NCBI GenBank assembly: GCA_026392465.1
Contig: JAPLCA010000008.1
Coordinates: 198,916-232,193 of the forward strand
Origin: Propionibacteriales bacterium
Lineage (GTDB): Bacteria > Actinomycetota > Actinomycetes > Propionibacteriales > Nocardioidaceae
Reading direction: 5' to 3'
DNA: 33,278 nt
Part shown: in pieces, positions 12,604 to 27,274 of the stretch
How positions within the stretch are numbered: position 1 is the first letter of the stretch
Layout: each line of letters opens with the position of its first letter
Program-made: the position numbers and the translations under genes
Notes under the pieces: model-generated
The model's database searches: none
Told to the model about the DNA's origin: nothing
What the model saw: only the letters and a program-made list of their open reading frames with translations

Positions 12604-12625
12604 ACTTGTCACGCGGGTGACAAGT
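12604..12625. promoter_or_regulatory. Palindromic operator candidate, copy 1
   Basis: Core TTGTCACGCGGGTGACAA at 12606-12623; the arms extend to 9 bases each around a 4-base centre. It sits just past the stop of the degenerate P-type-ATPase gene and 72 bases before the ATG of the first PucR gene, with a TTGACG -35-like hexamer at 12564-12569 between. One of seven copies in the window. Confidence 0.75.
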
Positions 12626-14064
12626 CAGGAGGCCGTTCGAGTCCCTGCCGACAGCACCGTGACGCCTGCGCCGAGCCCGGCCGCGACGCTCGCGAGCCCG
12701 GGCCCGAGAAGGCCGGCCGCGGCGAGGAAGCCGGCGACGGCGCTGCAGGTCAGGGCCACGACAAGCCCGCGCCGTGCCGCGCTGACCGCGGCGCGGGACG
12801 CGCGCACGGCGGTCGCGACGCGCAGCACGTCGAGGTCGGGCAGGCCGAGGTCGTCGGCCAGGGTCGACGACGCCGCGACGTGCAGCACCCGCTGTCCCTC
12901 GCGTGCCCTGGTCTCGACGTCGGCCTGCTGCCCGGCCACGTCGACGTCGCCCGCAGCGTCGACGACGCCTACCTGGCGCGCGACCTCTCGGGTGCGGGCG
13001 TCGGTGTCGGCGGAGCGGAGGGCGACGTCGAGTCCGAGGTCGCGCAGGGCCTGCACGCCCTCGGCGGCGTCGGGGCGGACGTCGTCGCCGACGGTGAGCG
13101 TGCCGAGCACGCGGGCGTCGACCTCGACGGCGAGGGTCGTCCAGGTGCCGGGCCGGGGTTCGAGACCGAGCCACGCCGGGTCGCCGACGCGGACGGGATG
13201 CCGGTCGACCCGACCTGACACGCCGGTGTCGCCGTGGCTCTGCACCTCGGTGACCCGGCCGCGGCCGGAGAGGCGGGAGATCGCGCGGGCGACCCGGTCG
13301 TCACGCTCGTGCTCCAGGGCGCCGGCGAACCAGCGCAGGTTGCGGTCGTGGTCGGGCTCGACGGGGTCGACCGACGTCACGCGGAGGCCTCCGGTCGTGA
13401 CGGTGCCGTCCTTGTCGAGGAGGACGACGTCGGCGGCGGCCACGTCGGCGACGGCGGCGGGATGCGGCAGGCCGATGTCGCGGCGGGCGACCCCGGCCCG
13501 CGCCGACCGCAGGGCCGCAGGGCCGGCGCAGAGTGCCGCGGCGGGCCCGGCGGCCACGAGCACCGCGGCCGCGACGAGGAGTCCGCGGTCGGGGGTGTCG
13601 GCCACGGCCCACCCGATCCCGGTCACGACGGCTCCGGCGGCGAGCAGGACCGTGGCGGCGCCGGGAACGTCCACGAGGCTCTGCTCCCCGCGCCAGCGGA
13701 GGACGAGGCTGAGCAGCGCGGCGGAGGCGACGACCGCGACCGCCATGGTCGGGGTGGTGTCGACGACCGTCTCGACGACGGTGGCGGCGAGCGCGACGAG
13801 GAGGCCGACGCTGCCGATCATCCCGGGCCCGACGCGGCGGCGCGCCAGCTCGACCGCCGCCTCTCGGTGCACCGGCACGGCCAGCGCGACGGCGAGGACG
13901 GCGACGCCGACGAGCACCCACCGCCAGCCGTCGAAGTGCAGGTCGGGCACCATCGACACGCTCACGGTCGACGCGGTGAGCAGCAGCCCGAGGACGAAGG
14001 TGAGCGCGAGGCAGCGGTGCGGGCCGCGCGAGGAGAGGCCGGTGGCCGCGTGGGCAGCGGTCAC
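12625..14064 (-). CDS. Degenerate P-type ATPase-like membrane protein
   Basis: 479-residue protein with the layout of a heavy-metal P-type ATPase but stripped of key parts. Six membrane segments precede the phosphorylation site and about two follow it, as in P1B pumps. D217 lies in VVLLDKDGTVTTGG, compared with the canonical DKTGTLT. The CPC metal motif is replaced by AAGPAAALCAGP. The loop between the fourth and fifth segments is only about 15 residues, so the actuator domain with TGE is absent. The GDGxNDxPAL motif is missing after RTREVARQVGVVDAAGDV. Transport activity is therefore unlikely. GTG 14064 overlaps the TGA of the second PucR gene, so the two are coupled; it may be a sensor or partner of that regulator (inference). 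Confidence 0.82.
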   Translation of the reverse strand: MTAAHAATGLSSRGPHRCLALTFVLGLLLTASTVSVSMVPDLHFDGWRWVLVGVAVLAVALAVPVHREAAVELARRRVGPGMIGSVGLLVALAATVVETVVDTTPTMAVAVVASAALLSLVLRWRGEQSLVDVPGAATVLLAAGAVVTGIGWAVADTPDRGLLVAAAVLVAAGPAAALCAGPAALRSARAGVARRDIGLPHPAAVADVAAADVVLLDKDGTVTTGGLRVTSVDPVEPDHDRNLRWFAGALEHERDDRVARAISRLSGRGRVTEVQSHGDTGVSGRVDRHPVRVGDPAWLGLEPRPGTWTTLAVEVDARVLGTLTVGDDVRPDAAEGVQALRDLGLDVALRSADTDARTREVARQVGVVDAAGDVDVAGQQADVETRAREGQRVLHVAASSTLADDLGLPDLDVLRVATAVRASRAAVSAARRGLVVALTCSAVAGFLAAAGLLGPGLASVAAGLGAGVTVLSAGTRTAS

Positions 14065-15248
14065 GGGGTGTCCTCCGCCCGGAAGCGCTCGAAGTCGCTC
14101 TGGTCGCCGGCCTTCCACAGCGGCACGCTCGCCTTGAGCAGCATCGTCAGCTGCACGAGGAACTCCGTGTCGTGCATCGCCTCGCCGAACAGCTCGTTGA
14201 TGCGCTTCCAGCGGTAGCGGACCGTCTGCGGGTGCACGCCCAGACGGGCGGCGATCGCCGGTGCGCTGTCGCGGGTCTCGAGCCAGACGAGCAGCGTCTC
14301 GGAGAGGATCTCGCGCGAGTTCGGGGTCTCGGCGAGCAGGGGGCTCAGCAGCTCCTGCCCGAGCTGCTGGCGCAGCGTGGGCTCGGCGTGCAGCCAGATC
14401 TGCGTGCGGTGGGCCCGGCAGTCGATCACCTGCGCGTCGGGGATCACCCCGCGGCGCACCAGCTCGAGCGCCCGGCGCGCCCAGCGGAACGCCGAGGGCA
14501 CGTCGGCCGGCTCGACGGCCCAGCCGACCGCGGCGCGGGGGACGCCGGCGTCGACGAGCGCCGCCGTCATGCAGTCCTGGTGCGTGGCGTCGACCATGAC
14601 AACGACGGTGTCGTCGTGGCCGACGAGCAGCGCGTCGCGCGAGAGCACACCGAGGTCGCGGCGCTCTCCTCCGAGCTCGGCCACGGCGAGCACGATCGAG
14701 GTGGGGATCCGCCAGACCGTGTCGCTGCCGGGCTCGGCGGTGCCGGTGAGGAGCTGCTCGGCGAGGACGGCGCGTGCACGGTTCGGGTCCGCCTCGCGCT
14801 GCCGGACCGTCTCGGTGTGCCCGGCCTCGACTTGCTCGACGAGGTGGTCGACGAAGGCCAGCAGGCCGTCGGAGACGACGGCCGGTGTCGTGCCGTCGAC
14901 GGTGAGGTGCCGCAACCGCGACCACGCCGTGCGCGTGCCGGTGCCGAGGGCCAGGTGGAAGTCGTCGAGCGAGCGGCCGGCGCGGGCCTCGCAGCGACCG
15001 ATCGAGCGGAACATCTCGTCGAGGCCGCGGTCGCGGTGGGGCGCGCCGTCGAGCTCGTCGAGGAAGCGGTGGAGCGCGGTGGTGACCGCCTCGACCACGA
15101 TCGGGTGGCGGGGCGACTCCCCGTAGTAGGGGATGCGCGCGCAGACGGCGTCGACGAGACCGGTGGCCAGCTCGGGCACCTCGCGGCGCAGACGCCGTGC
15201 GTGGGAGGCGACGAGGTCGGACGTGGGGCGGTCCGCGGACAGCGTCAT
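14061..15248 (-). CDS. PucR/CdaR-type transcriptional regulator (second of three)
   Basis: 395-residue regulator. The N-terminal domain (HARRLRREVPELATGLVDAVCARIPYYGE) resembles the RsbRD-type sensing domain found in PucR proteins. A central GGDEF-like region includes IVLAVAELGG and TVVVMVDA. The C-terminal HTH_30 is SETLLVWLETRDSAPAIAARLGVHPQTVRYRWKRINELFGEAM. ATG 15248 is chosen over an in-frame GTG at 15314, because the likely promoter -10 (15318-15323) sits too close to 15314. The stop overlaps the GTG of the degenerate P-type-ATPase gene. The gene is divergent from the LPDTG surface protein gene, with a 30-bp palindrome between them, so it could control both itself and that gene. It is closer to the third PucR protein than to the first. 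Confidence 0.9.
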   Translation of the reverse strand: MTLSADRPTSDLVASHARRLRREVPELATGLVDAVCARIPYYGESPRHPIVVEAVTTALHRFLDELDGAPHRDRGLDEMFRSIGRCEARAGRSLDDFHLALGTGTRTAWSRLRHLTVDGTTPAVVSDGLLAFVDHLVEQVEAGHTETVRQREADPNRARAVLAEQLLTGTAEPGSDTVWRIPTSIVLAVAELGGERRDLGVLSRDALLVGHDDTVVVMVDATHQDCMTAALVDAGVPRAAVGWAVEPADVPSAFRWARRALELVRRGVIPDAQVIDCRAHRTQIWLHAEPTLRQQLGQELLSPLLAETPNSREILSETLLVWLETRDSAPAIAARLGVHPQTVRYRWKRINELFGEAMHDTEFLVQLTMLLKASVPLWKAGDQSDFERFRAEDTP

Positions 15249-15317
15249 CGCGCGGATCCGTGCGGTCCAGGTCCCATCGTCGGCTCCCCGTTCCGATGAC
15301 TCGTGTGGCTGCACCGA

Positions 15318-15346
15318 GTTCTACCCCGTCGCCGGGCGCACGTCAA
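15318..15346 (-). promoter_or_regulatory. Sigma-A-like promoter of the second PucR gene
   Basis: On the minus strand TTGACG (15346-15341) and TAGAAC (15323-15318) are separated by 17 bases. The transcription start would fall near 15311, giving a leader of about 63 bases before ATG 15248. Confidence 0.55.
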
Positions 15347-15507: not shown

Positions 15508-15537
15508 CGGTTCTTGTCATGCGGGTGACAAGAACCG
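15508..15537. promoter_or_regulatory. Palindromic operator candidate, copy 2 (longest arms)
   Basis: Core TTGTCATGCGGGTGACAA at 15514-15531, with perfect arms of 12 bases (15508-15519 and 15526-15537). It lies in the 444-base divergent region between the second PucR gene and the LPDTG surface protein gene, 161 bases before the latter's ATG. The same region also holds the PucR promoter (15318-15346), a 12-bp perfect palindrome GTCTGGCCAGAC (15596-15607) and the GGAAGGAC ribosome site (15681-15688). I see no other gene in it. Confidence 0.8.
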
Positions 15538-15692
15538 CGCCGATTTGCGACCGCCGGCTCCGAACGCGCGACGTCGACCCGCCGCGTACGACACGGTCTG
15601 GCCAGACATGTGACCCAGCGCACTGTGCTGCGTCCGCGTCGTCCCGCACCCAGGGACGTCGCGCCCCCCGATGTCGGTACGGAAGGACACCC

Positions 15693-18600
15693 ATGAGGTT
15701 CGGATCTCGACGGACGACCGCCGTGGTCGCTGCAGGTGTGGTGGCGGTGGCCGGCCTGGTGGTCGTGGCGGCCCCCAGCCAGGCGGCGCTGCCGACCAGC
15801 GGCGACCGGATCGCGCACTGGTCGGCGGTCGCCGACCCCGAGGGGGGCAGCAGCGTCGTCCAGCGCGCCGACATCCCCGCGCCGTCCGGCCAGCGGTTCA
15901 CCGAGGTCCTGCCCCTCACGAACGTGGACAACGTGGTGGCCCTGACGGACCGTCAGGAGGTGCACTTCTACGGCTCGGCGAACCTCAACGTGCCGGCCGG
16001 CCTCGACGGGTCGACGGTCCGTGACGTCGACGTCAGCGGGCCGGTCCTCGGCGTCGTGACGGCGAGCGGCGACGTGACGACGTGGAATCGGTTCGGGGGC
16101 GACCAGCCCGCACCGCAGCCGCCCGCCGACCTGTGCCCGGCGACCCAGCTCTCGGTCGGCGGCACCGTCGACTTCGCGGTGGTGCGTTGCGAGGACGGCT
16201 CGGTCGAGGCCTTCGGCCGCAGCGGCGTGCGCTGGAGCGTGCCCGCCGACCTGCCCGAGGTCACCGAGGTCCGGGGCGGTTTCCTGTCCGGTGCGGCCGG
16301 ACCGATCGTCCGCGTGCTGACGAAGGACCAGAAGGTCCTGCAGTGGACGCCGTCCAGCTCGACCGCACCCGTCACGGCGTCGGAGAACCCGGTGACCCAG
16401 GGCAAGCAGGTGGCGAGCCTGACGACGGCCACCGCGCTGACGGCGTCGGGCGCCTTCCTCGACCTCGGGATCAACGACCAGCTGGCCCCGACCCGGCCCG
16501 TGCGACGCGGCGGTGCCACTCCGGCGCTGCTGGCCAAGCCGCTCGCGCACGTCGCCGTCGCCGACACCGGCGCGGGCCAGTACCTCACGCGCGACGGGGA
16601 GTTCGACGGCTGGAGCCCCGACACCGGCGTCATGATCGAGCTGCGCAAGCTCCCGTCGCGGCTGTCGGGGGCGAGCCTCGTGTCCGTCGGCACGGCCTCC
16701 GGCCACAGCGCGGTCATCGTCGCCGACACGGCGGCGCCCGAGGGCCCGAAGGTCACGGCACCGTCTCAGGTTTCGGGCGCCACCAACGGCGCCGCGCGTC
16801 CCGGCGACACGCTCACCGGCAAGGCTGCGACCTTCGACCCGGCCTCCGACGACGTGACCACGCAGTGGCTCGTGGACGGCAAGCCGGTCGCCGGCACGCA
16901 GGACCAGCCCACGTTCGCCGTGACCTCCGCCCAGGTGGGCAGCACCATCGCCTTCCGTACCAGCGCCGCTTTCCCGGACTCCGGCGATCCCGTCGTCTCG
17001 GACTCCTCCGCGGTCACCGTGGTGAAGGCCGAGGGCCCGAGCGTGGTGAAGGTTTCGGCGGTCGAGGGGTTCGGTGCGCCGGACGTGTCGGTCAAGGGGA
17101 CGTTCGCGAGCTTCTCGGAGGAGCCTGAGGATCGTGAGGCGTACTGGTTGGTCGACGGCGAGAAGGTCGCTGGGCAGGGGACGCCGGATGCGAAGGAGCT
17201 GTTGCTGACCGAGGACATGGTGGGCAAGAAGGTGCAGTTCGTGACGGTGGGCTACTTCGCCGACGACGTGGAGGTGGAGTCGGTCTCGGAGCCGTTGACG
17301 GTGCGGGTGAAGCTGGTCGAGGTCTCTCCGCCGACGGTCGAGGGGACACCTGAGGTGGGCTCGACGTTGAAGGTCGCGAAGCCGGCGGTGTTCAACGACG
17401 ACTCGCCCGACGTGACCATCTCGCACAAGTGGTACCGCGACTTCGTCACCGTGGTCGGCGAGGGAGACACCTACACGCTGACCAAGGACGACGTCGGATC
17501 GACGATCTACTACAGCGCCGAGGCGATCCGTCCGGGCGAGGCCTTCCCGGCGTACTCGTTCGACTTCACCGGCATCGGACCCGTCACGAAGGCCGCGCTG
17601 ACGATCACGGGCCTGCCCGTCATCGAGGGCGACGCCGTGGTCGGCAAGACGCTCACCGCGGCTCCCGCGCCATCGAGCGACGAGGACGCGACGGTCGCGT
17701 TCCAGTGGTTCGCCGACGGTCAGCCGATCGACAGTGCGACCGAGAGGACCCTGGTGCTCACCGAGGCCCTCGTCGGGAAGCCGGTCACGGTCCGCCAGAC
17801 GGTGTCACGGGACGGGGCGACCGAACCGGGGGCCGACCTCGCGCAGGCGACGTCGGAGCCGCGGACCGTGAGAGCCAAGCCGGTCGACCTGGCGGTGACG
17901 AAGCCTGCCACCGTCGAGGGCAAGCGCATCGTGGGCCAGACGGTGACCGGTTCGCCGGCCACGTTCAGCGACCCGGAGGCCAGCGTGACCAGCTACTGGA
18001 TGGTCGACGGCAAGCGCACCACGGCGACCGGCACGACCCTCACGCTCACGGCCGAGCACGTCGGCGCCTCGATCCGCTACGTCAGCGTCGCCGAGCGCGC
18101 CGAGGACGACGCCACGGCGGAGTCCGTGAGCGAGGGTCAGGTCGGGCCGGTGCTGGCGCAGGTGGCCGTGAAGACCGCGACGAAGCTGTCGGGCACGGCG
18201 CAGGTCGGCAAGACGCTGACGGCCACCCCCGCGACGTTCACCGGTGGGGAGGTCACGGTCGACGGCTCCTGGTGGGCCGACGGGAAGAAGCTCGACCAAG
18301 GCGGCCTGAATCTGCCGCTGACCGCTGAGCTCGAGGGCGCGGTGATCACGTTCCGTGCCACGGCCAGCCGCTCGGTCGACGGCGTCGATGAGCAGAAGAC
18401 GTCGGACGCGTCGAGCAGGAAGGTGGCCGCGGCCGACACGTCGACCCCGCCCACGACCCCGCCGACCACTCCGCCCGGCGGTGGCACCGACCCGAAGCCC
18501 CCGGCGGCCGGCCAGCCGTCGACGGACATCGTCCAGGGCTCGACCACGGTGGAGCGCGGCGACGTGCTCACGCTCCGACTGAGCCCCCGGCGTGCCGGCG

Positions 18601-18950
18601 ACAAGGTCGTCGTGATGCTGTTCTCGACCCCCACCAACCTCGGCACCCACACGGTCGCGGCCGACGGCACGGTGCGGGTGAGGATCCCGCAGGGCGTGGA
18701 CCTCGGGCGGCACCGGATCGCGGTCTACGACGCCGCGTCGGGCGCCCTCCTCGCCTGGCAGGCCATCACGGTCGTCGACGCCGCCGGAGGCACAGGGACC
18801 GGCGTCGGCTCCGGCGGCGGCGCGAGCCTGCCCGACACGGGCACCCCCGTCGATGCGCAGCTCATCGGCCTCGGCGCTGCCCTGCTCCTCGTCGGTGCCG
18901 GGGCGATCGGCTACCGCGCCCGTCGGCGGCCCAAGCACCGGGTGGGCTGA
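15693..18950 (+). CDS. LPXTG-anchored surface protein with RCC1-like and Ig-like repeats
   Basis: 1085-residue cell-wall protein. It has a signal peptide (MRFGSRRTTAVVAAGVVAVAGLVVV, then PSQAA). An RCC1-like beta-propeller region follows (about 35-340; repeats such as VVALTDRQEVHFYGS, VLGVVTASGDVTTWN and VVRCEDGSVEAFGRSG). Six Ig-like repeats of about 95 residues run from about 355 to 915, each with a G.tLt....f.d...v...W..dG pattern. A Pro/Thr linker (TPPTTPPTTPPGGG) and one more beta domain follow. The sorting signal is LPDTG at 1046-1050 with a membrane segment and RARRRPKHRVG tail, so a sortase should link it to the wall; none is in this window. Start ATG 15693 has GGAAGGAC 5 bases upstream. 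Adhesion or ligand binding is likely but unproven. Codon use in the second Ig repeat differs from its neighbours. Confidence 0.9.
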   Translation: MRFGSRRTTAVVAAGVVAVAGLVVVAAPSQAALPTSGDRIAHWSAVADPEGGSSVVQRADIPAPSGQRFTEVLPLTNVDNVVALTDRQEVHFYGSANLNVPAGLDGSTVRDVDVSGPVLGVVTASGDVTTWNRFGGDQPAPQPPADLCPATQLSVGGTVDFAVVRCEDGSVEAFGRSGVRWSVPADLPEVTEVRGGFLSGAAGPIVRVLTKDQKVLQWTPSSSTAPVTASENPVTQGKQVASLTTATALTASGAFLDLGINDQLAPTRPVRRGGATPALLAKPLAHVAVADTGAGQYLTRDGEFDGWSPDTGVMIELRKLPSRLSGASLVSVGTASGHSAVIVADTAAPEGPKVTAPSQVSGATNGAARPGDTLTGKAATFDPASDDVTTQWLVDGKPVAGTQDQPTFAVTSAQVGSTIAFRTSAAFPDSGDPVVSDSSAVTVVKAEGPSVVKVSAVEGFGAPDVSVKGTFASFSEEPEDREAYWLVDGEKVAGQGTPDAKELLLTEDMVGKKVQFVTVGYFADDVEVESVSEPLTVRVKLVEVSPPTVEGTPEVGSTLKVAKPAVFNDDSPDVTISHKWYRDFVTVVGEGDTYTLTKDDVGSTIYYSAEAIRPGEAFPAYSFDFTGIGPVTKAALTITGLPVIEGDAVVGKTLTAAPAPSSDEDATVAFQWFADGQPIDSATERTLVLTEALVGKPVTVRQTVSRDGATEPGADLAQATSEPRTVRAKPVDLAVTKPATVEGKRIVGQTVTGSPATFSDPEASVTSYWMVDGKRTTATGTTLTLTAEHVGASIRYVSVAERAEDDATAESVSEGQVGPVLAQVAVKTATKLSGTAQVGKTLTATPATFTGGEVTVDGSWWADGKKLDQGGLNLPLTAELEGAVITFRATASRSVDGVDEQKTSDASSRKVAAADTSTPPTTPPTTPPGGGTDPKPPAAGQPSTDIVQGSTTVERGDVLTLRLSPRRAGDKVVVMLFSTPTNLGTHTVAADGTVRVRIPQGVDLGRHRIAVYDAASGALLAWQAITVVDAAGGTGTGVGSGGGASLPDTGTPVDAQLIGLGAALLLVGAGAIGYRARRRPKHRVG

Positions 18951-19013: not shown

Positions 19014-19031
19014 GTGTCACCTCCGTGACAG
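19014..19031. promoter_or_regulatory. Palindromic operator candidate, copy 3 (weaker)
   Basis: GTGTCACCTCCGTGACAG keeps the TGTCAC/GTGACA arms, but the outer pair is not T/A as in the other copies. It stands 102 bases before the ATG of the interrupted paralog, just after the terminator of the surface protein gene. Confidence 0.55.
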
Positions 19032-19133: not shown

Positions 19134-19766
19134 ATGCACACGTGCACGAAGCGGGCCGTCTCAGCGGCGGCATTGGTGCTGTCGGTGGGCATCGCTTCTC
19201 CGGCCTGGGCTGGGGGCTACGAGGTCGTCGTGGGAGGAAGCGTCTCGGCGTCCGACCACCCCGTCACCGCGACGAGCGTCGCGTCCCCTCAGTGGGTCTA
19301 CGAGAAACCGAGCGGTTCCATCCTCAGCATGGCGTGCTCCAGCACACGCCTCGACCTGACGGTCCGGTCGGGCGCGAGCTCCGGTGCGTTCGCCCTCGCG
19401 CCAGGCGGGTCGAGCGCCGGCGGCAGCGGGCCGTTCAGTGTCATCAGCCATACCCACGTCGGGACCTGGCAGCTCGACCTCACGGGGTCCGCGACGGCAG
19501 GTAGTACCGACGTCGTCGACGGGGTGCTGCGGCACGTGCGGGTCGATCATGCGAACGCGGCCTGCAGGTTCTCGGTCGTCGGCGAGGCCCGTGTGCGCTT
19601 CCACGAGGCGACATAGCGTCTCGAGGTCGTCGAGAGAGGACGCTCAGGGTGGTTGCGTCAGATCGGTGTCGTCGGATGCCTGGGTCAGATCCGTGAGGGT
19701 GGGGTGGTCGACTGGCGGGTCACGTTCGACCTCGCCTCGCCGGACGGTGTGATCACGGTCAGGTAA
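19134..19766 (+). pseudogene. Secreted four-Cys-family paralog interrupted by an in-frame TAG
   Basis: First of five related secreted-protein genes. ATG 19134 has Shine-Dalgarno GGAGGAG (19119-19125) and encodes a signal peptide ending ASPAWA, then GGYEVVVGGSVSASDHPVTATS, as in the paralogs. After codon 160 (VRFHEAT) a TAG at 19614-19616 replaces the conserved Gln of the family's EATQ motif. The same frame then continues to a TAA at 19764, encoding RLEVVERGR...VVGCLGQIREGG...LASPDGVITVR, which matches the paralog C-terminus. Full length would be 210 codons, as in the intact copies, so a single CAG-to-TAG change explains it. The second family cysteine is also missing. It is either a young pseudogene, a readthrough gene or a sequencing error. 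The truncated 160-residue product would lack the last beta region. Confidence 0.82.
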
Positions 19767-19805: not shown

Positions 19806-20849
19806 TCACGGAGTCCTGTCCGGGAACGGAAGCTCCTCAGGCACGGGCCGGATCCGCGGGTTGTACGGCTGGTTGAGGTCGTCCGGGCACTTCGGGCCCA
19901 GGGTCTTCGGCGAGGTGCCGGGCGCCGGCGGGATGGAGCGCCCCGTGCCCTCCTCGTAGAACTGGCAGCCGAGAGATCCGATCCTCAGCGACAGCGGGTT
20001 GCCCGCACCGGAGATCGCGGTGGTCAAGAGAGGGGAGATGTCGTCACCGGAGGCGGTCGTGCAGCCTCGGAAACGCGGCACATCGATGGTTCCGTCGAGC
20101 TGTCCCCCCTGCAGTGCGACGAAGCTGGTCGACGGATCGAAGTCCGTCACCGACGGCGGCGGGGGTTCCCCGACAGGGAAGCTGGAAGGGCGGCTAGCGG
20201 TCGCGATGCGCGCGTCGGGCGCGAGGCATCCTTCGCCGAGGCGTACATCCTGGCCGTCGACCTCCACAGATCGCACCGCCACGTCGACCGTGGCGGAGAA
20301 CTCCGTCGACGGGTAGAACTCCGTGGTGCCTCTCGAGGAATTCACGAGATGGAGGTAGAACGGGATGGGCAAGTCGGAGCTGTCCCGCTTCTGGCTGATC
20401 TGCAAGACGACCGTCGCGGGAATCGCGCCGAAGGCGACCGTCCGGACGGAGATGCGTGGAGACTGCCCGTAGTTGTGACGAGAGCCTCGGGGGGAGACGA
20501 AGTGCGCCCACACATCGACGGTGGAGTCATTGCCGCCCGCATCGTTCTGGCTCACGGTGAAGGCCGAGTTGGCGGCTAGGAGGCCGATGGGGACGCGAGC
20601 CCACTGCTTCGAAGCGGACGACCCGGTCATGCCCGTTTGCATGACGTTCATCCCCGTGAAGTCCTCCTGCACGTTCGGGGTGCTCTCGCAGGTACCGGGC
20701 GCCCACGCGAAGGGTCGGCATTCGGCGTAGGGCAGACCGGGATACCACGTACCCGGTCGCTGGGGCTTCTCTTCGGCGGAGGAGGAACCGCTGATCAGCA
20801 CGAGGGCCAACGCGCAGCTCAGCACGGCGAACGGAAGGCGCACTCTCAT
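19806..20849 (-). CDS. Secreted protein of unknown function, six cysteines in mature part
   Basis: 347-residue exported protein that I do not recognise. ATG 20849 gives a clear signal peptide (MRVRLPFAVLSCALALVLISG, cleavage probably after SSSA); the upstream open frame has no such feature. The mature part contains six cysteines (AEC, GTC, EGC, RGC, LGC, PKC), which suggests three disulfides. Segments such as TVDVWAHFVSPRGS, SPRISVRTVAFGAIPATVVLQIS, FYLHLVNSSRGTTEFYPSTEFSATVDVAV look like beta strands, so a beta-sandwich is plausible. The tail is Pro-rich (SIPPAPGTSPKTLGPKCPDD, then RPVPEELPFPD). It has no membrane anchor or lipobox. It converges with the interrupted paralog (39-base gap) and has a regulatory palindrome 73 bases upstream of its start, tying it to the surrounding secreted-protein genes. 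Confidence 0.78.
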   Translation of the reverse strand: MRVRLPFAVLSCALALVLISGSSSAEEKPQRPGTWYPGLPYAECRPFAWAPGTCESTPNVQEDFTGMNVMQTGMTGSSASKQWARVPIGLLAANSAFTVSQNDAGGNDSTVDVWAHFVSPRGSRHNYGQSPRISVRTVAFGAIPATVVLQISQKRDSSDLPIPFYLHLVNSSRGTTEFYPSTEFSATVDVAVRSVEVDGQDVRLGEGCLAPDARIATASRPSSFPVGEPPPPSVTDFDPSTSFVALQGGQLDGTIDVPRFRGCTTASGDDISPLLTTAISGAGNPLSLRIGSLGCQFYEEGTGRSIPPAPGTSPKTLGPKCPDDLNQPYNPRIRPVPEELPFPDRTP

Positions 20850-20922
20850 CCCGACAGCGTCGACGTCAGTGGTCCCGCGGGTCAAGCACGAAGGGTCGTA
20901 GCAGCACTGTCCGGATGGAGGA

Positions 20923-20940
20923 TTGTCATCCGCATGACAA
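20923..20940. promoter_or_regulatory. Palindromic operator candidate, copy 4
   Basis: TTGTCATCCGCATGACAA, perfect 7-base arms around 4 bases. It lies 73 bases before the ATG of the 347-residue secreted protein (minus strand), in the 379-base divergent region that also contains copy 5 and the nested hairpin. I see no gene in the region between 20941 and 21092. Confidence 0.75.
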
Positions 20941-21092: not shown

Positions 21093-21110
21093 TTGTCACG
21101 CGCATGCCAA
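21093..21110. promoter_or_regulatory. Palindromic operator candidate, copy 5
   Basis: TTGTCACGCGCATGCCAA has one mismatch between arms (C for A in the right half). It lies 118 bases before the ATG of the first intact paralog (plus strand) and about 150 bases from copy 4, so the divergent genes each have their own copy. Confidence 0.65.
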
Positions 21111-21161
21111 TCTTTCGACCGATCCGAGCCGCGTCGGGGCGGGGGTGTTGCGGACAGTGGG

Positions 21162-21228: not shown

Positions 21229-21864
21229 ATGAAGATCAAGCACGCAGCCATCGGCACCGCCGCCCTCGCTCTCGCAGGAGTCGCGGCGGCTGGTCCGGCG
21301 CTCGCCACCGGCAGCTCCTACACCGTCGCGGTCGGCGGCAGCTCCGCGGCCGGGACCCACAACATCACTGCTGCGTCGACGGGATCGCTCAGCTTCGCGG
21401 TCCCCACCCTCAGCATGAGCTGCACCAGCGCGGCCGTCCCGTCGTCGCCGGCCTCGACCGTGGCCTCGGGCACCGGCGTGGTCGACATCGCCGCCATCAA
21501 CAAGATCAACTTCACCGGTTGCACGGGCCCTGGTGGTGCCCTGACGGTCACCACCAGCGGCTCCTGGAAGCTGCACGGCACCAGCGCCGCCACCAGCGGC
21601 TCGTCCGACGTCGTGAGCGGCCACGTGGAGAACATCACGGCCGTCGTCTCGAACGCCGTCTGCCGCTTCACCGTCACCGGCTCCGCCACCGGCAGCTTCA
21701 ACGAGGCCAACCAGCAGCTCAGCGTCAACGAGACCGGGTTCACCGGCAACCTCAAGGTCTCCAACGTGACCGGCTGCCTCGGCCAGGTGCAGAACGGCCA
21801 GTCCGCGAACTTCACCGGCAACTTCCAGGTGACGTCGCCCGACGGCGCCATCAACGTCAGCTGA
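21229..21864 (+). CDS. Secreted four-Cys-family protein (intact paralog 1)
   Basis: 211-residue exported protein; function unknown. The signal peptide is MKIKHAAIGTAALALAGVAA, with cleavage near GPALA. The mature part starts TGSSYTVAVGGSSAAGTHNITAAS, the family hallmark. Four cysteines are conserved across the family (MSCTS, TGCTG, AVCRF, TGCLG) and probably form two disulfides. Further family blocks are TSGSSDVVSGHVENI, NETGFTGNLKVSNVTGCLGQVQNGQ and the C-terminal TSPDGAINVS. It is Thr/Ser/Gly-rich with alternating hydrophobic residues, so an all-beta fold is likely. There is no anchor, so it should be released or held non-covalently. Start ATG 21229 has GGAAGGA 5 bases upstream. It has its own terminator and stands apart from the other three intact copies. 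Copy 5 of the palindrome and a leader hairpin precede it. Confidence 0.85.
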   Translation: MKIKHAAIGTAALALAGVAAAGPALATGSSYTVAVGGSSAAGTHNITAASTGSLSFAVPTLSMSCTSAAVPSSPASTVASGTGVVDIAAINKINFTGCTGPGGALTVTTSGSWKLHGTSAATSGSSDVVSGHVENITAVVSNAVCRFTVTGSATGSFNEANQQLSVNETGFTGNLKVSNVTGCLGQVQNGQSANFTGNFQVTSPDGAINVS

Positions 21865-22044: not shown

Positions 22045-22680
22045 ATGACCACCACCCCCACCGCCCGCTGGCGCAAGCGCGCTGCCGTGGCAGCCACCGG
22101 CGCAGCCGTCGCGCTCGTCCCCCTGGCGGCGCACGCCGCCACGATCGTCACGATCAACTACGACGCCCAGGGCACCTCGCACATCGCGAAGACCAACTCC
22201 GACGTCGCGCTCGGACCCACCACGCTGCGCACGGACCTGGACATCGACACCGGTGACTTCACCGGCTCGCTGCCCCTGCCCGGCACCTCGACCGAGTTCA
22301 AGATCGCCGGCTTCCTGCCCGTCAAGGCGAACGTCGACTTCGTCGAGGCGGCCCCGCTGACCGGCAACATCAACCTGACGCAGACGCAGGCGCAGGTCAG
22401 CTCCACCGCGACGTACTACGTCAAGCTGTCGAACATCAAGGTCGCCGGCTTCCCGACGTTCGCGGGCTCGAAGTGCCAGACGAAGGCGCCCGTGTCCATC
22501 CCCGTCGGCACGCGCCCGGACGAGGGCTTCGACCTCATCAACGGCGGCGAGCTCGTCGGCACCTACACGATCGGCAAGTTCGAGAACTGCGGCATCAACA
22601 CCCCGCTGATCAACAGCCTGGTGCCCGGCGCCGGCAACACCGTCGACATCACGGTGACGAACGGCGTCATCGCGGAGTAA
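22045..22680 (+). CDS. Secreted beta-rich protein, unrelated to the four-Cys family
   Basis: 211-residue exported protein that I do not recognise. The signal peptide is MTTTPTARWRKRAAVAATGA with cleavage after AAHA. The mature part has many short alternating hydrophobic stretches (ATIVTINYDAQGTSHIAKTN, TEFKIAGFLPVKANVDFVEA, ATYYVKLSNIKVAGF), consistent with a beta-barrel or beta-sandwich. Two cysteines (SKCQT, FENCG) could form one disulfide. Segments like FLPVKANVDF and GSLPLPGTSTEFKIAG recall actinobacterial secreted proteins thought to bind lipids, but this is a weak impression. ATG 22045 has AAGGAG 5 bases upstream. It is bounded by hairpins on both sides, so it is probably transcribed alone. 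No copy of the 18-bp palindrome is seen in its upstream region. Confidence 0.82.
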   Translation: MTTTPTARWRKRAAVAATGAAVALVPLAAHAATIVTINYDAQGTSHIAKTNSDVALGPTTLRTDLDIDTGDFTGSLPLPGTSTEFKIAGFLPVKANVDFVEAAPLTGNINLTQTQAQVSSTATYYVKLSNIKVAGFPTFAGSKCQTKAPVSIPVGTRPDEGFDLINGGELVGTYTIGKFENCGINTPLINSLVPGAGNTVDITVTNGVIAE

Positions 22681-22728: not shown

Positions 22729-22762
22729 CCTGCTCCGGAACTGCTCGAGAAGGAGAGTCCTC

Positions 22763-23410
22763 ATGGCCATCGCACGCACCGCACGCCGCACCATCCTGGC
22801 TGTTGCCGCCGCCCTCGCCCTCTCCGTCGGGGTCGGCCCGGCAACGGCGGCGGGGAACAGCGTCACCGTCGCTGTCGGCGGGTCCAGCGCCGAGGGGTCG
22901 CACGCGGTCACCGCTGTGTCGACCCGCGTCGAGATGGCGACGCAGACCTTCAGCTGGACATGCCAAAGAGCACAAGTTCCGGCGAGTCCGGTGTCCGAGG
23001 TCCCCTCCGGCACCTCCGTCACGGACGTGCTCACCGTGCGTGCCATGGCGTTCGTGGGGTGCTCGTGGCCGGGCGGCACGATGCCGACTGCACTGATCTC
23101 TCCCGCGACCTTCCGGGTCACGGGCCCGGCTACGTCGGGCAGCAGCGATGTCGTTCACGGCCGCATCGAGGGTTTTGCGATCAAGGGCAGCTACTCCATT
23201 TGTGACTTCACCGCCACCGGTTCTGTCAGAGCGACGCTCAAGGAGAGCACACAACAGCTGACGATCGACGAGTCCGACTTCACGGGGAACCTGGTGATCT
23301 CCCAGGTCCGGGGCTGTCTGCAGTTGGTGCAGGTGGGCCAGGCGATGAACCTCAGGACAACCCTGCAGCTCACCTCGCCCGACGGAGCGATCAACATCAG
23401 CGGCTCGTGA
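22763..23410 (+). CDS. Secreted four-Cys-family protein (intact paralog 2)
   Basis: 215-residue exported protein, first of a tandem trio. The signal peptide is MAIARTARRTILAVAAALAL, ending GPATAA. The mature part starts GNSVTVAVGGSSAEGSHAVTAVS. Cysteines are at FSWTCQR, AFVGCSW, YSICDF and VRGCLQ. Other family blocks are FRVTGPATSGSSDVVHGRIEG, ESTQQLTIDESDFTGNLVISQVRGCLQLVQVGQAMNL and TSPDGAINISGS. Compared with the others the GCLGQVQNG motif is changed to GCLQLVQVG. ATG 22763 has AAGGAG at 22750-22755. The 34-base gap after a strong terminator leaves little room for a full promoter, so either read-through or a promoter inside the terminator region is needed. Confidence 0.84.
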   Translation: MAIARTARRTILAVAAALALSVGVGPATAAGNSVTVAVGGSSAEGSHAVTAVSTRVEMATQTFSWTCQRAQVPASPVSEVPSGTSVTDVLTVRAMAFVGCSWPGGTMPTALISPATFRVTGPATSGSSDVVHGRIEGFAIKGSYSICDFTATGSVRATLKESTQQLTIDESDFTGNLVISQVRGCLQLVQVGQAMNLRTTLQLTSPDGAINISGS

Positions 23411-23423
23411 GACCGGACGGGCG

Positions 23424-23462
23424 CTCCCGATGTCGGGAGTACCGCTCGCGACCGCGGAGCGG
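23424..23462 (+). repeat. Two small inverted repeats between paralogs 2 and 3
   Basis: CTCCCGA (23424-23430) pairs with TCGGGAG (23433-23439), and CCGCTC (23442-23447) with GAGCGG (23457-23462). Both stems are short. They may be weak attenuators or processing sites within a tandem transcript. The gap between paralogs 3 and 4 keeps a related segment and a 12-bp palindrome GAGCGGCCGCTC. Confidence 0.35.
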
Positions 23463-23480
23463 CCTCGACGATCCATCTCA

Positions 23481-23510
23481 GTCCTGGAGGACTCATGACG
23501 TTCACGCGTA
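23481..23510 (+). repeat. Duplicated leader and start region, copy 1
   Basis: This stretch across the ribosome site and start of paralog 3 is identical to 24211-24240 at 29 of 30 bases (T versus A at the fifth base). The flanking leader also aligns loosely, including a shared CCGCGGAGCG. It marks a recent tandem duplication that included intergenic DNA. Confidence 0.7.
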
Positions 23511-24139
23511 CCCCGCGGCGGGCCTTCGGTGCCGTCGTGGCGCTTCTCGCCGTCGGCATCGGCCCGGCGGCCGCGACGGGGAACGGCTACCGGGTCGCGG
23601 TCGGCGGGAACTCGGCGACGGCTGCTCATCCCATGACCGCCGCGACGACGATGTCCGTGAACTGGGCGTCCCCGACGCTCACCTGGACCTGCACCTCGGC
23701 GACCGTGCGGGCCTCGGCTCTGGCCACGGCGCAGGCCGGGTACCCGGTCACGGACATCCTGCGGTTCCCGACGTTCGACTTCCGGGGCTGCACGTTCCCT
23801 GGGGGAGCCATGGCCACCACGACGGCTGGCGAGTGGCAGTTTCATGCCGAGGGACCAGCGACGTCCGGAGCGACGGACGTGGTGGAGGGCCACCTGGACC
23901 ACATCAGTCTCACGTGGAGGAACGCCGTCTGCTCGATCACCGTGAGCGGCCGTGCCGCCGCCTCCTTCGATGAAGCGACGCAGCAGCTCGTCATCGAGGA
24001 GTCAGGATTCACCGGCAACCTGAAGACATCAGGCGTCCTGGGGTGCCTGGGGCAGGTGAGGAATGGCCAACCCATCAACCTCTCGATGCGGCTGCAGCTC
24101 ACCTCGCCCGACGGCGCGATCAACATCAGCGGTTCCTGA
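23495..24139 (+). CDS. Secreted four-Cys-family protein (intact paralog 3)
   Basis: 214-residue exported protein, second of the tandem trio. The signal peptide MTFTRTPRRAFGAVVALLAV ends near GPAAA. The mature start is TGNGYRVAVGGNSATAAHPMTAAT. Cysteines are in LTWTCTS, FRGCTFPGG, AVCSITV and LGCLG. The block EATQQLVIEESGFTGNLKTSGVLGCLGQVRNGQPINL and the end TSPDGAINISGS follow the family pattern. It differs from the others in the middle (TATTMSVNWASPTL; TATAQAGYPVTDILRFPTFDF). ATG 23495 follows GGAGG with a 4-base gap. It sits 84 bases after paralog 2 and 85 before paralog 4, so the trio is probably co-transcribed. Confidence 0.85.
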   Translation: MTFTRTPRRAFGAVVALLAVGIGPAAATGNGYRVAVGGNSATAAHPMTAATTMSVNWASPTLTWTCTSATVRASALATAQAGYPVTDILRFPTFDFRGCTFPGGAMATTTAGEWQFHAEGPATSGATDVVEGHLDHISLTWRNAVCSITVSGRAAASFDEATQQLVIEESGFTGNLKTSGVLGCLGQVRNGQPINLSMRLQLTSPDGAINISGS

Positions 24140-24210
24140 GACCGAGCGGCCGCTCCCTGACCAGGGGTGCGCCACTCGAAACCGCGGAGCGACCTTCATC
24201 ATCACTCGCA

Positions 24211-24240
24211 GTCCAGGAGGACTCATGACGTTCACGCGTA
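24211..24240 (+). repeat. Duplicated leader and start region, copy 2
   Basis: Partner of 23481-23510; covers the ribosome site and first codons of paralog 4. Divergence begins right after the sixth codon, so both proteins start MTFTRN/MTFTRT. Confidence 0.7.
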
Positions 24241-24875
24241 ACTCGCCACGGGCACTCGCTGTTGCTGGCGCCCTTCTCGCCCTCGCCGTCGGCATCGGCC
24301 CAGCGGCTGCCACGGGGAACAGTGTCACGGTCGCCGTGGGCGGGTCCTCTGCGCCGGGATCCCACTCCATCACGGCCGCTACGTCCGAGGTGGTCTCATG
24401 GGCATCGCCGATCCTGGCCTGGAGCTGCACCCAGGCCAAGGTCCCGCCGAGTCCGGTGTCGGACGTCAGCTCGGGGTCGGGCGTGACCGACGTCCTGCAG
24501 ATCCGCGCGCTCCAGTTCGGGGGCTGCGTGTGGCCCTATGGTTCGATCTTGATCGAACTCACCACTCCGGCGTCCTTCCGCGTCACGGGTCCGGCCACGT
24601 CGGGCAGCAGTGACGTCGTCCAGGGTCGGATCGATGACGTCACCATCAGGGCAAAGAACGCGATCTGCGACTTCACGGTCAGCGGTTCCATGCGAGCGTC
24701 GCTGAACGAGGCCACGCAAAAGCTGGCCGTCGACGAGTCCGGCTTCACGGGCAACCTCGTGATCTCCCAGGTCAAGGGCTGCCTCGGCCAGGTGCAGAAC
24801 GGGCAGGCGATGAACCTCACCATGAATCTGCAGCTCACCTCGCCCGACGGAGCCATCAACATCAGCGGCTCGTGA
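24225..24875 (+). CDS. Secreted four-Cys-family protein (intact paralog 4)
   Basis: 216-residue exported protein, last of the tandem trio. ATG 24225 is chosen over upstream in-frame starts because it has GGAGG just upstream, shares its leader with paralog 3 and begins a signal peptide (MTFTRNSPRALAVAGALLAL, ending GPAAA). The mature part starts TGNSVTVAVGGSSAPGSHSITAATS. Cysteines are at 68, 101, 148 and 186. Gln165 in NEATQKL is the residue that is a TAG codon in the broken copy. FRVTGPATSGSSDVVQGRIDD and GNLVISQVKGCLGQVQNGQAMNL are nearly identical to paralog 2 at the protein level, whereas the start region is shared with paralog 3. That pattern suggests gene conversion within the array. 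Function unknown. Confidence 0.86.
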   Translation: MTFTRNSPRALAVAGALLALAVGIGPAAATGNSVTVAVGGSSAPGSHSITAATSEVVSWASPILAWSCTQAKVPPSPVSDVSSGSGVTDVLQIRALQFGGCVWPYGSILIELTTPASFRVTGPATSGSSDVVQGRIDDVTIRAKNAICDFTVSGSMRASLNEATQKLAVDESGFTGNLVISQVKGCLGQVQNGQAMNLTMNLQLTSPDGAINISGS

Positions 24876-25039: not shown

Positions 25040-25046
25040 CGCGCGG

Positions 25047-26294
25047 TCAGACCGCGCGCCGCCACCGCAGCATGCTCGACTCCAGCGCGTTGAGGAGGGT
25101 CGCGGTCTGGGTGGGGTCCTCGAGGCGCGAGCCGAACAGGTCGCGCAGGCGACGCAGACGGTGACGCACCGTCTGGTCGTGCACACCCAGCTCGGACGCC
25201 AGGGCCGGGGCGCTGTGGTGCGTCTGCAGCCACAGCAGCAGCGTCTCCGCCAGGGCCATGCGGCGCTTCGGGGTCTGGGCGAGCAGCGGCGCGAGCTCGC
25301 GCTCGTCGAGCAGGCGGCGCAGAGCGGGGTCGGCGTGCGTGCACAGGAGGTCCTGGTGCTGCTCCACCTCCACCAGGCCGTCCGCGGGGGCCGAGATCAC
25401 GCCCTCCTGCAGGAGCGACAGCCCGCGTGACGCCCAGCGGCACGCCAGGTGGGTCTGGGCCGGCGGCACGCTCCACGCGAGCGACACCGCCTCGCCGGTG
25501 CGGTGCGCGACGTCGCGGGCGAGCTCGCGCGCGACGTCGGGGGTGGCCACGACGATGAGCCGGCCGTGCTGCACTCCGGAGAGCGCTCCGGTGCACGTGC
25601 CGGCGAGCCGCGTCGTGTCCTCGGTGTCGCGGGTGACCGCGACGACGACCTCGTCGGGGAGCGTCCAGGAACATCGCTCCGCGAGCATCTCCAGCTCGGC
25701 CGCACACGTGCCGCGCAGCAGGGCGACGAGCATGGCCGCGCGGCCCTCGTCGTGGTCGCGGCGCGCGCGGGCACTGGCCCGGGCGAACCCGCGCACGGCG
25801 TGCTCGAAGAGCCGCTTCTGGTAGGCGAGCAGGCCGGCGCCGAGCGCGCCGACGACCTCGGCCGACTGGCCCAGCTCGCTCGCCGCGAGCTGCAGGTCCG
25901 TCCACGACTCCTGGGTCGCGATCTGGTGGGCCGCGCGCATCGCGTCGAGGTTCAACCCCGCCGTCGACTGGTAGCTGCCGACCCACTGGTAGAAGGTGAA
26001 CACCTCGGTGCCCTGGGTCGGGGCTCCCGCGATGGTGTCGACGAACAGCTCGACGGCGCGACGGATGGCCTCGTCGATGCCCAGGTGGATCTTCGGGTCC
26101 CCCTGGGCGGCGAAGCCGGCCACCTCGCTGCGGATGCGCTCGACGATGCGCCGGGTCAGCTCGGCCGAGCGGGGCCGGTAGGCGGCGACGACGTCGGCGG
26201 GCAGCAGCGGCAGGCCCAGCGACTCGCGCAGGTTGGTGCGGGTGGACGTACGGGTGGCTTCCCTGTCGGAGCCGTGGTGGGTCAGTGCTGTCAT
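25047..26294 (-). CDS. PucR/CdaR-type transcriptional regulator (third of three)
   Basis: 415-residue regulator. The N-terminal sensing domain includes AAYRPRSAELTRRIVERIRSEVAGFA and IDEAIRRAVELFVDTIAG. The central GGDEF-like part includes EVVVAVTRDTEDTTRLAG and GRLIVVATPDVARELARDVA. The C-terminal HTH_30 is AETLLLWLQTHHSAPALASELGVHDQTVRHRLRRLRDLFGSRLEDPTQTATLLNALESSMLRW. ATG 26294 has a good ribosome site (AAGGGGGAG); the longer reading to 26345 has none. Palindrome copy 6 lies about 130 bases upstream, suggesting autoregulation or control by a sister PucR. The domain order matches the second PucR protein, with similar HTH sequence (SAPAxAxxLGVHxQTVRxRxxR), so they may read the same DNA site. 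Confidence 0.9.
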   Translation of the reverse strand: MTALTHHGSDREATRTSTRTNLRESLGLPLLPADVVAAYRPRSAELTRRIVERIRSEVAGFAAQGDPKIHLGIDEAIRRAVELFVDTIAGAPTQGTEVFTFYQWVGSYQSTAGLNLDAMRAAHQIATQESWTDLQLAASELGQSAEVVGALGAGLLAYQKRLFEHAVRGFARASARARRDHDEGRAAMLVALLRGTCAAELEMLAERCSWTLPDEVVVAVTRDTEDTTRLAGTCTGALSGVQHGRLIVVATPDVARELARDVAHRTGEAVSLAWSVPPAQTHLACRWASRGLSLLQEGVISAPADGLVEVEQHQDLLCTHADPALRRLLDERELAPLLAQTPKRRMALAETLLLWLQTHHSAPALASELGVHDQTVRHRLRRLRDLFGSRLEDPTQTATLLNALESSMLRWRRAV

Positions 26295-26416
26295 GTGTCT
26301 CCCCCTTGCTCGTGTCCGGGCGCAGTGCGGGGGCGCTCGGACCATTCCCTCGAGCGTCAGTCAACGGATCGTGCCGCGACGAGTCCAGGGTCGAGGAGGG
26401 GGAGGGGACGAATCGG

Positions 26417-26450
26417 TCAGGAAGTTGTGACGCGGGTTACAACTTCCTGA
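26417..26450. promoter_or_regulatory. Palindromic operator candidate, copy 6 (variant core, long arms)
   Basis: Core TTGTGACGCGGGTTACAA at 26425-26442 differs from the others at the fourth pair, but the outer arms are perfect for 12 bases (26417-26428 with 26439-26450). It lies 130 bases before the third PucR gene and 20 bases after the stop of the small XRE gene; both read leftward, so it could also act as a terminator for the latter. Confidence 0.7.
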
Positions 26451-26469
26451 GAGGGGTCGACGGGAGGGG

Positions 26470-26682
26470 TCAGGGACGCAGCAGGTCGAGCGGGTCGACG
26501 CCGAGTCTCTCGGCCAGCTGCTCGAGGCTGACGAGCGTCAGGTTGCGCTCCCCGCGCTCGACCGATCCGAGGTAGGTGCGGTGGTAGCCGAGCTGGTCGG
26601 CCAGCTTCTCCTGGCTCAGTCCCAGTTGCTTGCGGTGCGCACGCAGGCGCTGCCCGACGACGTGCTGCAGTGACTCGCTCAC
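26470..26682 (-). CDS. Small XRE/Cro-type DNA-binding protein
   Basis: 70-residue protein that is almost entirely one HTH_3 domain: VVGQRLRAHRKQLGLSQEKLADQLGYHRTYLGSVERGERNLTLVSLEQLAERLGVDPLDLL. The helix-turn-helix is SQEKLADQLGYHRTYLGSVERG. GTG 26682 is the only start that keeps the first helix. Stand-alone XRE domains of this size often act as repressors of adjacent genes. The gene lies between the third PucR gene and the DUF6907-like gene, all on the minus strand. An inverted repeat upstream of its start may be its own operator. Confidence 0.85.
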   Translation of the reverse strand: MSESLQHVVGQRLRAHRKQLGLSQEKLADQLGYHRTYLGSVERGERNLTLVSLEQLAERLGVDPLDLLRP

Positions 26683-26704
26683 GCAGGCAGCGTGTCGCAG
26701 TGCG

Positions 26705-26730
26705 ACTCATCGGTCGACAGACGGATGAGT
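26705..26730. promoter_or_regulatory. Inverted repeat upstream of the XRE gene
   Basis: ACTCATC (26705-26711) pairs with GATGAGT (26724-26730), 23 bases before the XRE start. The 10-mer TGCGACTCAT containing the left arm (26701-26710) recurs at 27195-27204 in the region upstream of the DUF6907-like gene. It may be an operator for the XRE protein. Confidence 0.4.
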
Positions 26731-26756
26731 AGCGCGTGGCGTCGGAGGCGCGCGAC

Positions 26757-27104
26757 TCACTCCCGCTCGCGATCAGCCTGCGCGGGATCCGTGGTGGCAA
26801 GGGCGGCCGCGAGGCGGCGCGCACCGGCGGGGTCGAGGACGAGGCGGGCGATACCTGACTCCTCCAGGACGATCCACTCCTCGGGGTCGTGGCAGCGTCG
26901 GGTGCGGACCACGCAGACCTCGCCGTGCGTCGGGTGCGGCGTGGGGTCGTCGGCGGTGCGGCGGGCGAGCACGACCGGGACGTGGACCGGGACGCCGTCG
27001 TGGTGCCGGTCGTCCGGGTGGTCGTCCTCGGCGTGCGCGGTCGCGCACCAGGCGGGGCAGGGTTCGTGCAGCCAGCTGGGGCGCTCGGGTCGGTCGCCGG
27101 GCAT
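26757..27104 (-). CDS. DUF6907-like small cytoplasmic protein
   Basis: 115-residue protein resembling the actinobacterial DUF6907 group: an N-terminal CPAWCATAHAEDDH motif (Cys/His pattern that could hold a metal), then a beta-rich part VHVPVVLARRTADD and EVCVVRTRRC, and the C-terminal helix LVLDPAGARRLAAALATTD. Function of the family is unknown to me; members are usually found near regulators with XRE domains, as here. ATG 27104 follows AAGGGAG with a 5-base gap. A TAGCGT -10 candidate on the minus strand (27149-27144) would give a leader of about 33 bases. Confidence 0.72.
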   Translation of the reverse strand: MPGDRPERPSWLHEPCPAWCATAHAEDDHPDDRHHDGVPVHVPVVLARRTADDPTPHPTHGEVCVVRTRRCHDPEEWIVLEESGIARLVLDPAGARRLAAALATTDPAQADRERE

Positions 27105-27256
27105 GCAGCTCCCTTCGTCGGTCGCGCGGTGGGGACACGAGGAACGCTAGGCGTCGCTGCGGACACCGGACCTGCGTCCGCATCGCCTCCATCCTGCGAC
27201 TCATGGGTAGCGGATGCGGACCGGTCGGTGACGGCGACGGCGGGTGCGATCGAAAG

Positions 27257-27274
27257 TTGTCACGCACCTGACAA
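27257..27274. promoter_or_regulatory. Palindromic operator candidate, copy 7, upstream of the mce operon
   Basis: TTGTCACGCACCTGACAA, perfect 6-base arms. It lies 139 bases before the ATG of the first mce-operon gene, in the 309-base divergent gap with the DUF6907-like gene. A TACGGT (27346-27351) could serve as -10 for the mce operon, placing the palindrome about 72 bases upstream of it, a position that would fit activation better than repression. The gap also holds the TAGCGT box (27144-27149) and one TGCGACTCAT repeat (27195-27204). Confidence 0.72.

Follow-up and report, generated by a model that had tools for sequence, protein, structure and literature searches.

How a bacterium might tie a predicted lipid importer to the proteins of its envelope is a question raised by a 33,278-nucleotide stretch of DNA from a Propionibacteriales bacterium of the family Nocardioidaceae (contig JAPLCA010000008.1; hereafter the window). 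It carries an mce importer operon, genes for predicted secreted and surface proteins, three pucR regulator genes and seven copies of an 18-base-pair (bp) palindrome, which we call the box. The sequence-only reading had proposed that the copies were binding sites of one or more of the PucR proteins and defined a local envelope regulon. We found that it was right in substance and stronger than its author could know, since the box is a conserved putative operator with a predicted regulon. A local regulon of the mce operon, the secreted and surface proteins and the three pucR genes was strongly supported by conservation and promoter geometry, whereas the role of PucR was deduced from sequence. The box is probably the operator of a PucR-type activator, with PucR2 as the first candidate, and would define an Mce-plus-envelope regulon in Nocardioidaceae.

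The box was an 18-bp inverted repeat, TTGTCA-N6-TGACAA, with weaker AA/TT-rich symmetry in its flanks. The palindrome was present at each of the seven positions reported earlier. The arms were perfect in box 1 (12606-12623, before pucR1), box 2 (15514-15531, between pucR2 and the gene of an LPDTG-ending protein), box 4 (20923-20940, before a secreted protein gene) and box 7 (27257-27274, before the mce operon). Box 5 (21093-21110, before a four-Cys paralog, paralog 1) had one arm mismatch. Box 6 (26425-26442, before pucR3) had two (TTGTGACGCGGGTTACAA), and its off-consensus half-site was common to the relatives. Box 3 (19014-19031, before a broken four-Cys paralog) had two of its 12 arm bases off (GTGTCACCTCCGTGACAG) and was called degenerate because it fell outside the three-mismatch cut of the full pattern. 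An off-consensus box preceded the counterparts of this broken paralog too, as CTGTCACAGAGGTGACAG in L074 and TTGTCACCCCCATGACAG in L081. Box 2 was kept in L063, L074, L068 and L081. The window was scanned with TTGTCAYGCGSRTGACAA at up to three mismatches, and six places (12 strand matches) were found against 0.09 expected from 100 shuffles. None was found in positions 1-12600 at this cut, the half that had been described as empty. The 12-base perfect arms claimed for two copies were readable from the flanks at 15514 and 26425, and all seven boxes lay between genes in the new gene calls, as had been stated. The earlier range of 72-161 bases from box to start codon was roughly right, because called starts are approximate: six gene sides gave 73-153, but the remaining sides gave 207-421.

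A genome-wide pattern scan was run on the 39 contigs of the own genome (3,693,493 bases). The boxes were concentrated in the window and were not scattered at random. The relaxed pattern TTGTCAYNCRNRTGACAA matched seven times at up to two mismatches; one match was on contig C3 and the other six were in the window. The reversed control pattern gave no match in the same scan. With six of the seven matches in the window, the box is a feature of this locus. The broader TTGTNAN6TNACAA at up to one mismatch gave eight places, again six in the window. The remaining two were on contig C39 and were unlike the other copies.

Conservation was investigated by scanning 148 genomes, including the own one, at up to one mismatch; related genomes, some of which are counted both here and among the named genomes below, are not independent. 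The site was found in 21 of 49 genomes of the genus, 5 of 42 from other genera of the family and 15 of 57 from other families of the order. Within the genus, 18 of the 20 genomes with a PucR2 ortholog had the site, compared to 3 of the 29 without (Fisher 1.8e-8). Each of those three had one single one-sided match. G010 and G038, which have PucR2 and no site at this cut, still carried TTGT-N10-ACAA before mce. In the other genera of the family, the site was found in 4 of 4 genomes with PucR2 and 1 of 38 without, with the surroundings viewed for G090 only. In addition, named genomes were searched with the PucR2 alignment, and 40 loci were retrieved from Aeromicrobium, Nocardioides, Pimelobacter, Mumia and a few relatives that were unplaced or assembled from metagenomes. 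The closest named relative was Aeromicrobium sp. CnD17-E (PucR2 96%). Of these loci, 28 had the site at up to one mismatch and 25 had it with perfect arms; the sites numbered 90 in total, against none for the reversed pattern. In relatives from Aeromicrobium and Nocardioides, the box was conserved in intergenic DNA.

The placement of the box was examined in 30 loci chosen to cut redundancy. With one mismatch allowed, all 108 sites lay between called genes, in DNA that was 84.7% coding; the motif was thus neither at random positions nor without conservation, the outcome that would have spoken against the earlier proposal. The spacing of the half-sites was fixed: TTGT-Nk-ACAA occurred 106 times at k = 10, always intergenic, whereas each of the other k values between 2 and 24 gave 0-3 occurrences. 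TTGT-N10-ACAA was found within 400 bp before the fused ATPase-YrbE mce gene in 20 of the 20 genus genomes having that gene. Among 19 named loci with the fused gene, the box was directly before it in 14. In L147, L157, L159, L163 and L164, one or two same-strand genes preceded mce, and the box sat before those. This is the placement that a promoter-linked operator would show.

Promoter geometry was analyzed by stacking 174 promoters, each in gene orientation on its nearest site, and scoring -35/-10 pairs of the sigma-70 type with a simple weight table to take the best one. The predicted -35 began 37 nucleotides past the box in 52 promoters, 36 in 17 and 47 in 12 (81 of 174), and no offset rose above 8 in 20 rounds of a shuffled control. 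By class, the 36/37 offset was found for pucR1 in 10/14, pucR2 in 6/20, pucR3 in 14/17, the secreted protein in 12/19, the four-Cys paralogs in 9/26, a 211-residue secreted protein in 4/6 and other genes in 7/22. The mce promoters gave 6/24, plus 9 at 47. The opposite side of the box showed the same peaks, but weaker (14 at 37, 10 at 47), which fits sites placed between divergent promoters. In the window, the predicted -35 elements fitting this rule were TTGACG for pucR1 (12564-12569, - strand, 36 nucleotides away), TTGACC for the secreted protein (20880-20885, - strand, 37), TTGCGG for paralog 1 (21148-21153, + strand, 37, tied best score), TGGACT for pucR3 (26382-26387, - strand, 37) and TGGCGG for mce (27322-27327, + strand, 47, with -10 TACGGT). 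Counted from the canonical -10, the box centre was at about -81 or -91 of the predicted starts. This suggested the position of an upstream activator, not a typical repressor position. On the predicted promoters, the distance was fixed and helically phased and the box did not overlap the promoter, as for an upstream activator.

Four candidate DNA-binding proteins are encoded in the locus, namely PucR1, PucR2, PucR3 and a small helix-turn-helix (HTH) protein of the XRE type. The PucR-type HTH domain (HTH_30) scored 34.8 bits in PucR1, 52.4 in PucR2 and 46.4 in PucR3, above the Pfam cut-off of 27 bits. The own genome had six HTH_30 matches, four of them above the cut-off, and three of these four were encoded among the boxes. 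The predicted model of PucR2 contained a GGDEF-like domain, an HTH fold and an N-terminal non-heme globin-like domain, as in MabR-type proteins. PucR2 alone among the four candidates occurred in every one of the 20 genus genomes with the box before mce. PucR3 as sole regulator was rejected, with no match at 40% identity or more in 9 of 22 PucR2-bearing genomes, 7 of which retain sites when one mismatch is allowed; this search left out G089 and G090, and G090 has a 42% PucR3. PucR1 as sole regulator was rejected as well, with no relative at E values up to 1e-15 in 8 of 24 genomes, G039 matching PucR3 alone and G033 holding a weaker PucR1-like gene (26%). G044 had neither PucR1 nor PucR3 at those cuts and kept its boxes. 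The small XRE protein had no match at E values up to 1e-15 in 12 of the 24 PucR2-bearing genomes and was not retained as sole regulator. A PucR protein as the binder is the best supported reading of the earlier proposal, because three of the four PucR HTH proteins of the genome lie among the boxes, the box resembles the MabR operator and PucR2 was found in 20 of 20 genomes. PucR2 in particular is favored as the regulator, with some reserve. The fourth PucR protein above the cut-off (G000 C26:81359, locus L198) was encoded beside a gene resembling, by eye, flavin adenine dinucleotide-dependent dehydrogenases, and TTGT-N8..12-ACAA was absent from this 3.2-kb locus.

The locus was compared with known systems. 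MabR (Rv2242), which acts on the fasII promoter of Mycobacterium tuberculosis, has globin-like, GGDEF-like and HTH domains, as in the PucR2 model (PMC5541348, PMC11617747). It is a PucR-type activator, and its inverted repeat with TTGT/ACAA ends, TTTTGT(N)9ACAAAA, lies upstream of the promoter at -87 (-147 in M. smegmatis) and resembles the box (PMC5541348, PMC11617747). However, the spacer was one base longer here, since TTGT-N9-ACAA was found once in the 30 loci and TTGT-N10-ACAA 106 times. FasR of Streptomyces coelicolor is another PucR-type activator, with a site about -67 upstream, and was compared by position (PMC5541348, PMC11617747). MabR and FasR target fatty-acid synthesis, whereas the boxes here lie several to a locus and concern an Mce importer and envelope proteins. 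GabR of Corynebacterium glutamicum is a PucR-type activator with two 21-bp inverted repeats upstream of its promoter; it differs in serving gamma-aminobutyric acid catabolism, in binding between -87 and -23 and in being described without a GGDEF-like domain (PMC7652997). Few members of the PucR family have been studied, according to the same source (PMC7652997). KstR and Mce3R are TetR-type repressors of mycobacterial mce and lipid genes; the likeness is control of an Mce importer, and they were compared by protein family. Mce1R and Mce2R are GntR-type regulators. The mycobacterial mce regulators differ from PucR in belonging to other protein families and in being repressors. Two predicted motifs of Nocardioides simplex, a member of the same bacterial family, Lcin1 (TCCCGGTSACCGGGA) and the non-palindromic Lcin2, did not equal the box (PMC7593942). 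The same paper reports steroid-induced mce genes in N. simplex. Among the matches listed in a literature search, with subscription journals and preprints outside it, no report of a PucR-Mce link or of the box motif was found.

Based on the above, PucR-type activators, PucR2 foremost, would bind the box as a dimer, with the box centre some 81 bp (at some mce promoters 91 bp) ahead of the predicted start of transcription. PucR would then activate the fused Mce importer operon and the pucR genes, along with the predicted four-Cys secreted proteins and the predicted LPDTG surface protein. We infer both the binding and the activation from the sequence features described. By analogy with MabR, the globin-like N-terminal domain might, speculatively, sense as its ligand a long-chain acyl-coenzyme A or some other product derived from the imported lipid. 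A wider form of the mechanism, which we regard as unlikely, is that PucR2 and a degenerate P-type-ATPase-like membrane protein form one sensor of the lipid that enters through the Mce importer. From the -81/-91 operators, it would turn on expression of the importer, of secreted lipid carriers with a barrel-like fold and of the anchored surface protein, and would couple cargo delivery across the wall to uptake.

Several observations weigh against a PucR2-centred operator. The two counted sites of G062 were one-sided near-matches away from its PucR2 and may be chance. The 15 of 57 genomes outside the family match at up to one mismatch, yet none has a PucR2 match below 1e-24. Of the 40 named loci, 12, with the two Mumia loci among them, lacked a box at up to one mismatch, and four Aeromicrobium loci (L146, L149, L151 and L154) have PucR2 with no box nearby. 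PucR2 and the fused mce gene (E up to 1e-120) occurred in an identical set of 20 out of 49 genus genomes, with the mce gene in 0 of the 29 others, and therefore the profile cannot tell the regulator from its target. In G009, G010, G023, G032, G037 and G038, mce and a PucR1-like gene flank the box. PucR2 is 8.7 kb distant in G010 and, in the other five, either much more remote or on a different contig; in these six genomes, the PucR1-like protein is as good a candidate as PucR2. The 36/37 rule was not followed by the LPDTG (1/11) and DUF6907 (0/10) promoters. In the window, the LPDTG, pucR2, DUF6907 and broken-paralog sides were off the rule, and box 2 was off on both sides, where a strong -35 at 36-37 nucleotides was absent. 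Among remote boxes found away from the locus, only L065, L071, L077 and L085 had a best or second-best -35 at 36-37.

Two or three overlapping regulons, with the PucR proteins differing in the boxes that they read (PucR3 the TCACAA type, PucR1 others), are a possibility that we hold tentatively. Position 14 of the box was C, which makes the promoter-proximal half-site TCACAA instead of TGACAA, in 19 of the 51 promoters of pucR genes, compared with 9 of the 123 other promoters (Fisher 4e-6, a value too small because the species are related); for pucR3, it was C in 12 of 17. This variant may weaken or tune self-activation, or may mark a PucR3-specific site. The recognition helix of PucR1 differs, and the PucR1-like gene adjoins mce and the box in the six genomes mentioned above. 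However, the helices of PucR2 and PucR3 were alike by eye, and the target boxes were alike with or without PucR3 or PucR1. It is also conceivable, but rather improbable, that the same PucR proteins bind the box and repress, and that the ligand releases them. B. subtilis PucR acts as both activator and repressor, and early overexpression work read MabR as a negative regulator (PMC7652997 and PMC5541348, respectively). Against this, the box was clear of the predicted -35/-10, lying 36-47 nucleotides upstream at offsets separated by roughly one helical turn, and the mce -35 hexamers were poor (TGGCGG, TGGAAC).

It is doubtful that the small XRE-type protein, or another unlinked regulator, binds the box and that the PucR sites are elsewhere. 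The XRE-type gene sits between boxes 6 and 7 and has HTH family matches, and palindromes are frequently bound by XRE proteins. However, 10 of the 12 genomes without a match to it keep the site at up to one mismatch, and G010 and G038 have TTGT-N10-ACAA before mce. The long perfect arms of boxes 2 and 6 would also suit a dispersed repeat or an RNA hairpin without a regulatory role. This was rejected on the intergenic-only placement and the k = 10 spacing and is very improbable; the variants were specific to gene class, the box kept its distance to the predicted promoters, and the flanks outside the box differed between gene classes. Activation by PucR from the box is the preferred reading.

The cargo and control of Mce importers outside mycobacteria are poorly understood. 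The conserved operator is predicted to link the importer with particular secreted and surface proteins and so supplies a list of parts for a lipid route in environmental actinobacteria, and the box offers a simple reporter for the inducer of the importer. If true, the reading would bring a PucR-type activator into Mce control and would give the PucR family an operator with a geometry testable in many species.

By eye and Pfam, the locus reads from left to right dnaK-grpE-dnaJ-hspR, pucR1, the P-type-ATPase-like gene, pucR2, the LPDTG protein, the broken four-Cys paralog, the secreted protein, the four-Cys paralogs with the 211-residue secreted protein, pucR3, the small HTH gene, the DUF6907 gene and the mce operon. 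The regulator genes are all on the - strand: pucR1 (11397-12533, HTH_30 1.4e-8), pucR2, the proposed core regulator (14061-15248, HTH_30 4.4e-14, with a predicted model matching the MabR domains), pucR3 (25047-26294, HTH_30 3.3e-12) and the small XRE-type gene, the alternative regulator (26470-26682, HTH family matches). The DUF6907 gene (26757-27104, - strand) was assigned by a family match. The P-type-ATPase-like gene (12625-14064, - strand) overlaps the end of pucR2 by 4 nucleotides on the same strand, and in 36 of the 40 named loci such a gene is next to pucR2. It matched HAD hydrolase (2.6e-9) and the heavy-metal P-type ATPase model (4.7e-31, far below the cut-off). The DKTGT phosphorylation motif of catalytic P-type ATPases reads DKDGT in the window copy. 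It was found in 0 of 55 called relatives, and D[KR][TDSNA]G[TV] was absent in 46 of the 55, which are rough gene calls, some truncated and some from genomes counted twice. The protein may be a sensor, not a pump, as judged from these motifs.

The LPDTG-ending repeat protein (15684-18950, + strand) is a predicted surface protein that matched the NCBIfam ZirU family below the cut-off. The broken four-Cys paralog (19134-19616, + strand) has a TAG inside the family span; its counterparts in the relatives G005 and G029 were open, without the internal TAG. The predicted secreted protein (19806-20846, - strand) has relatives in many loci and 346 residues as cut here, against 347 in the sequence-only reading. 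Four-Cys secreted paralog 1 (21229-21864, + strand) has a barrel-like predicted model, and its four Cys were invariant in 23 sequences; a Foldseek structural search gave no match at E values up to 0.001. The predicted secreted 211-residue protein (22045-22680, + strand) adjoins paralog 1 in many loci and its gene is likely co-transcribed. Three further four-Cys paralogs, assigned by sequence family, follow at 22763-24875 (22763-23410, 23495-24139 and 24225-24875, + strand). The fused Mce ATPase and YrbE permease (27414-29174, + strand) has ABC_tran and MlaE domains. The second YrbE and the Mce proteins follow (29176-33278, + strand), and the operon runs on past the window end. The parts of an actinobacterial Mce transporter operon were present, with an ABC_tran+MlaE fusion, MlaE and five MlaD-domain proteins; one further Mce-like gene was called at 32383-33420.

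In the box-less loci L143, L145, L146, L150 and L167, alternative palindromes looked for de novo and by eye were terminator-like or unrelated repeats, and TTGT-N8..11-ACAA was absent. Outside the family, one recurring near-match, TTGTCGTGCAGGTGACAA, was found in 10 of the 15 matching genomes, all of genus g28 (order level). The near-match at C3:1945 of the own genome precedes a Flp-pilin-like gene, with no best or second-best -35 at 36-37 nucleotides. The evidence for the remote boxes as regulon members was mixed. In G004, a perfect box (L078:5118-5135) stands 122 bp upstream of a gene that has sigma-70 regions 2 and 4, similar to extracytoplasmic-function sigma factors. In G044, a perfect box (L072:5830-5847) is found 91 bp upstream of an unlinked gene that carries MlaD and Mce4_CUP1 domains. 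The top-scoring -35 predicted for this box falls outside 36-37 nucleotides, and its location suggests action in trans.

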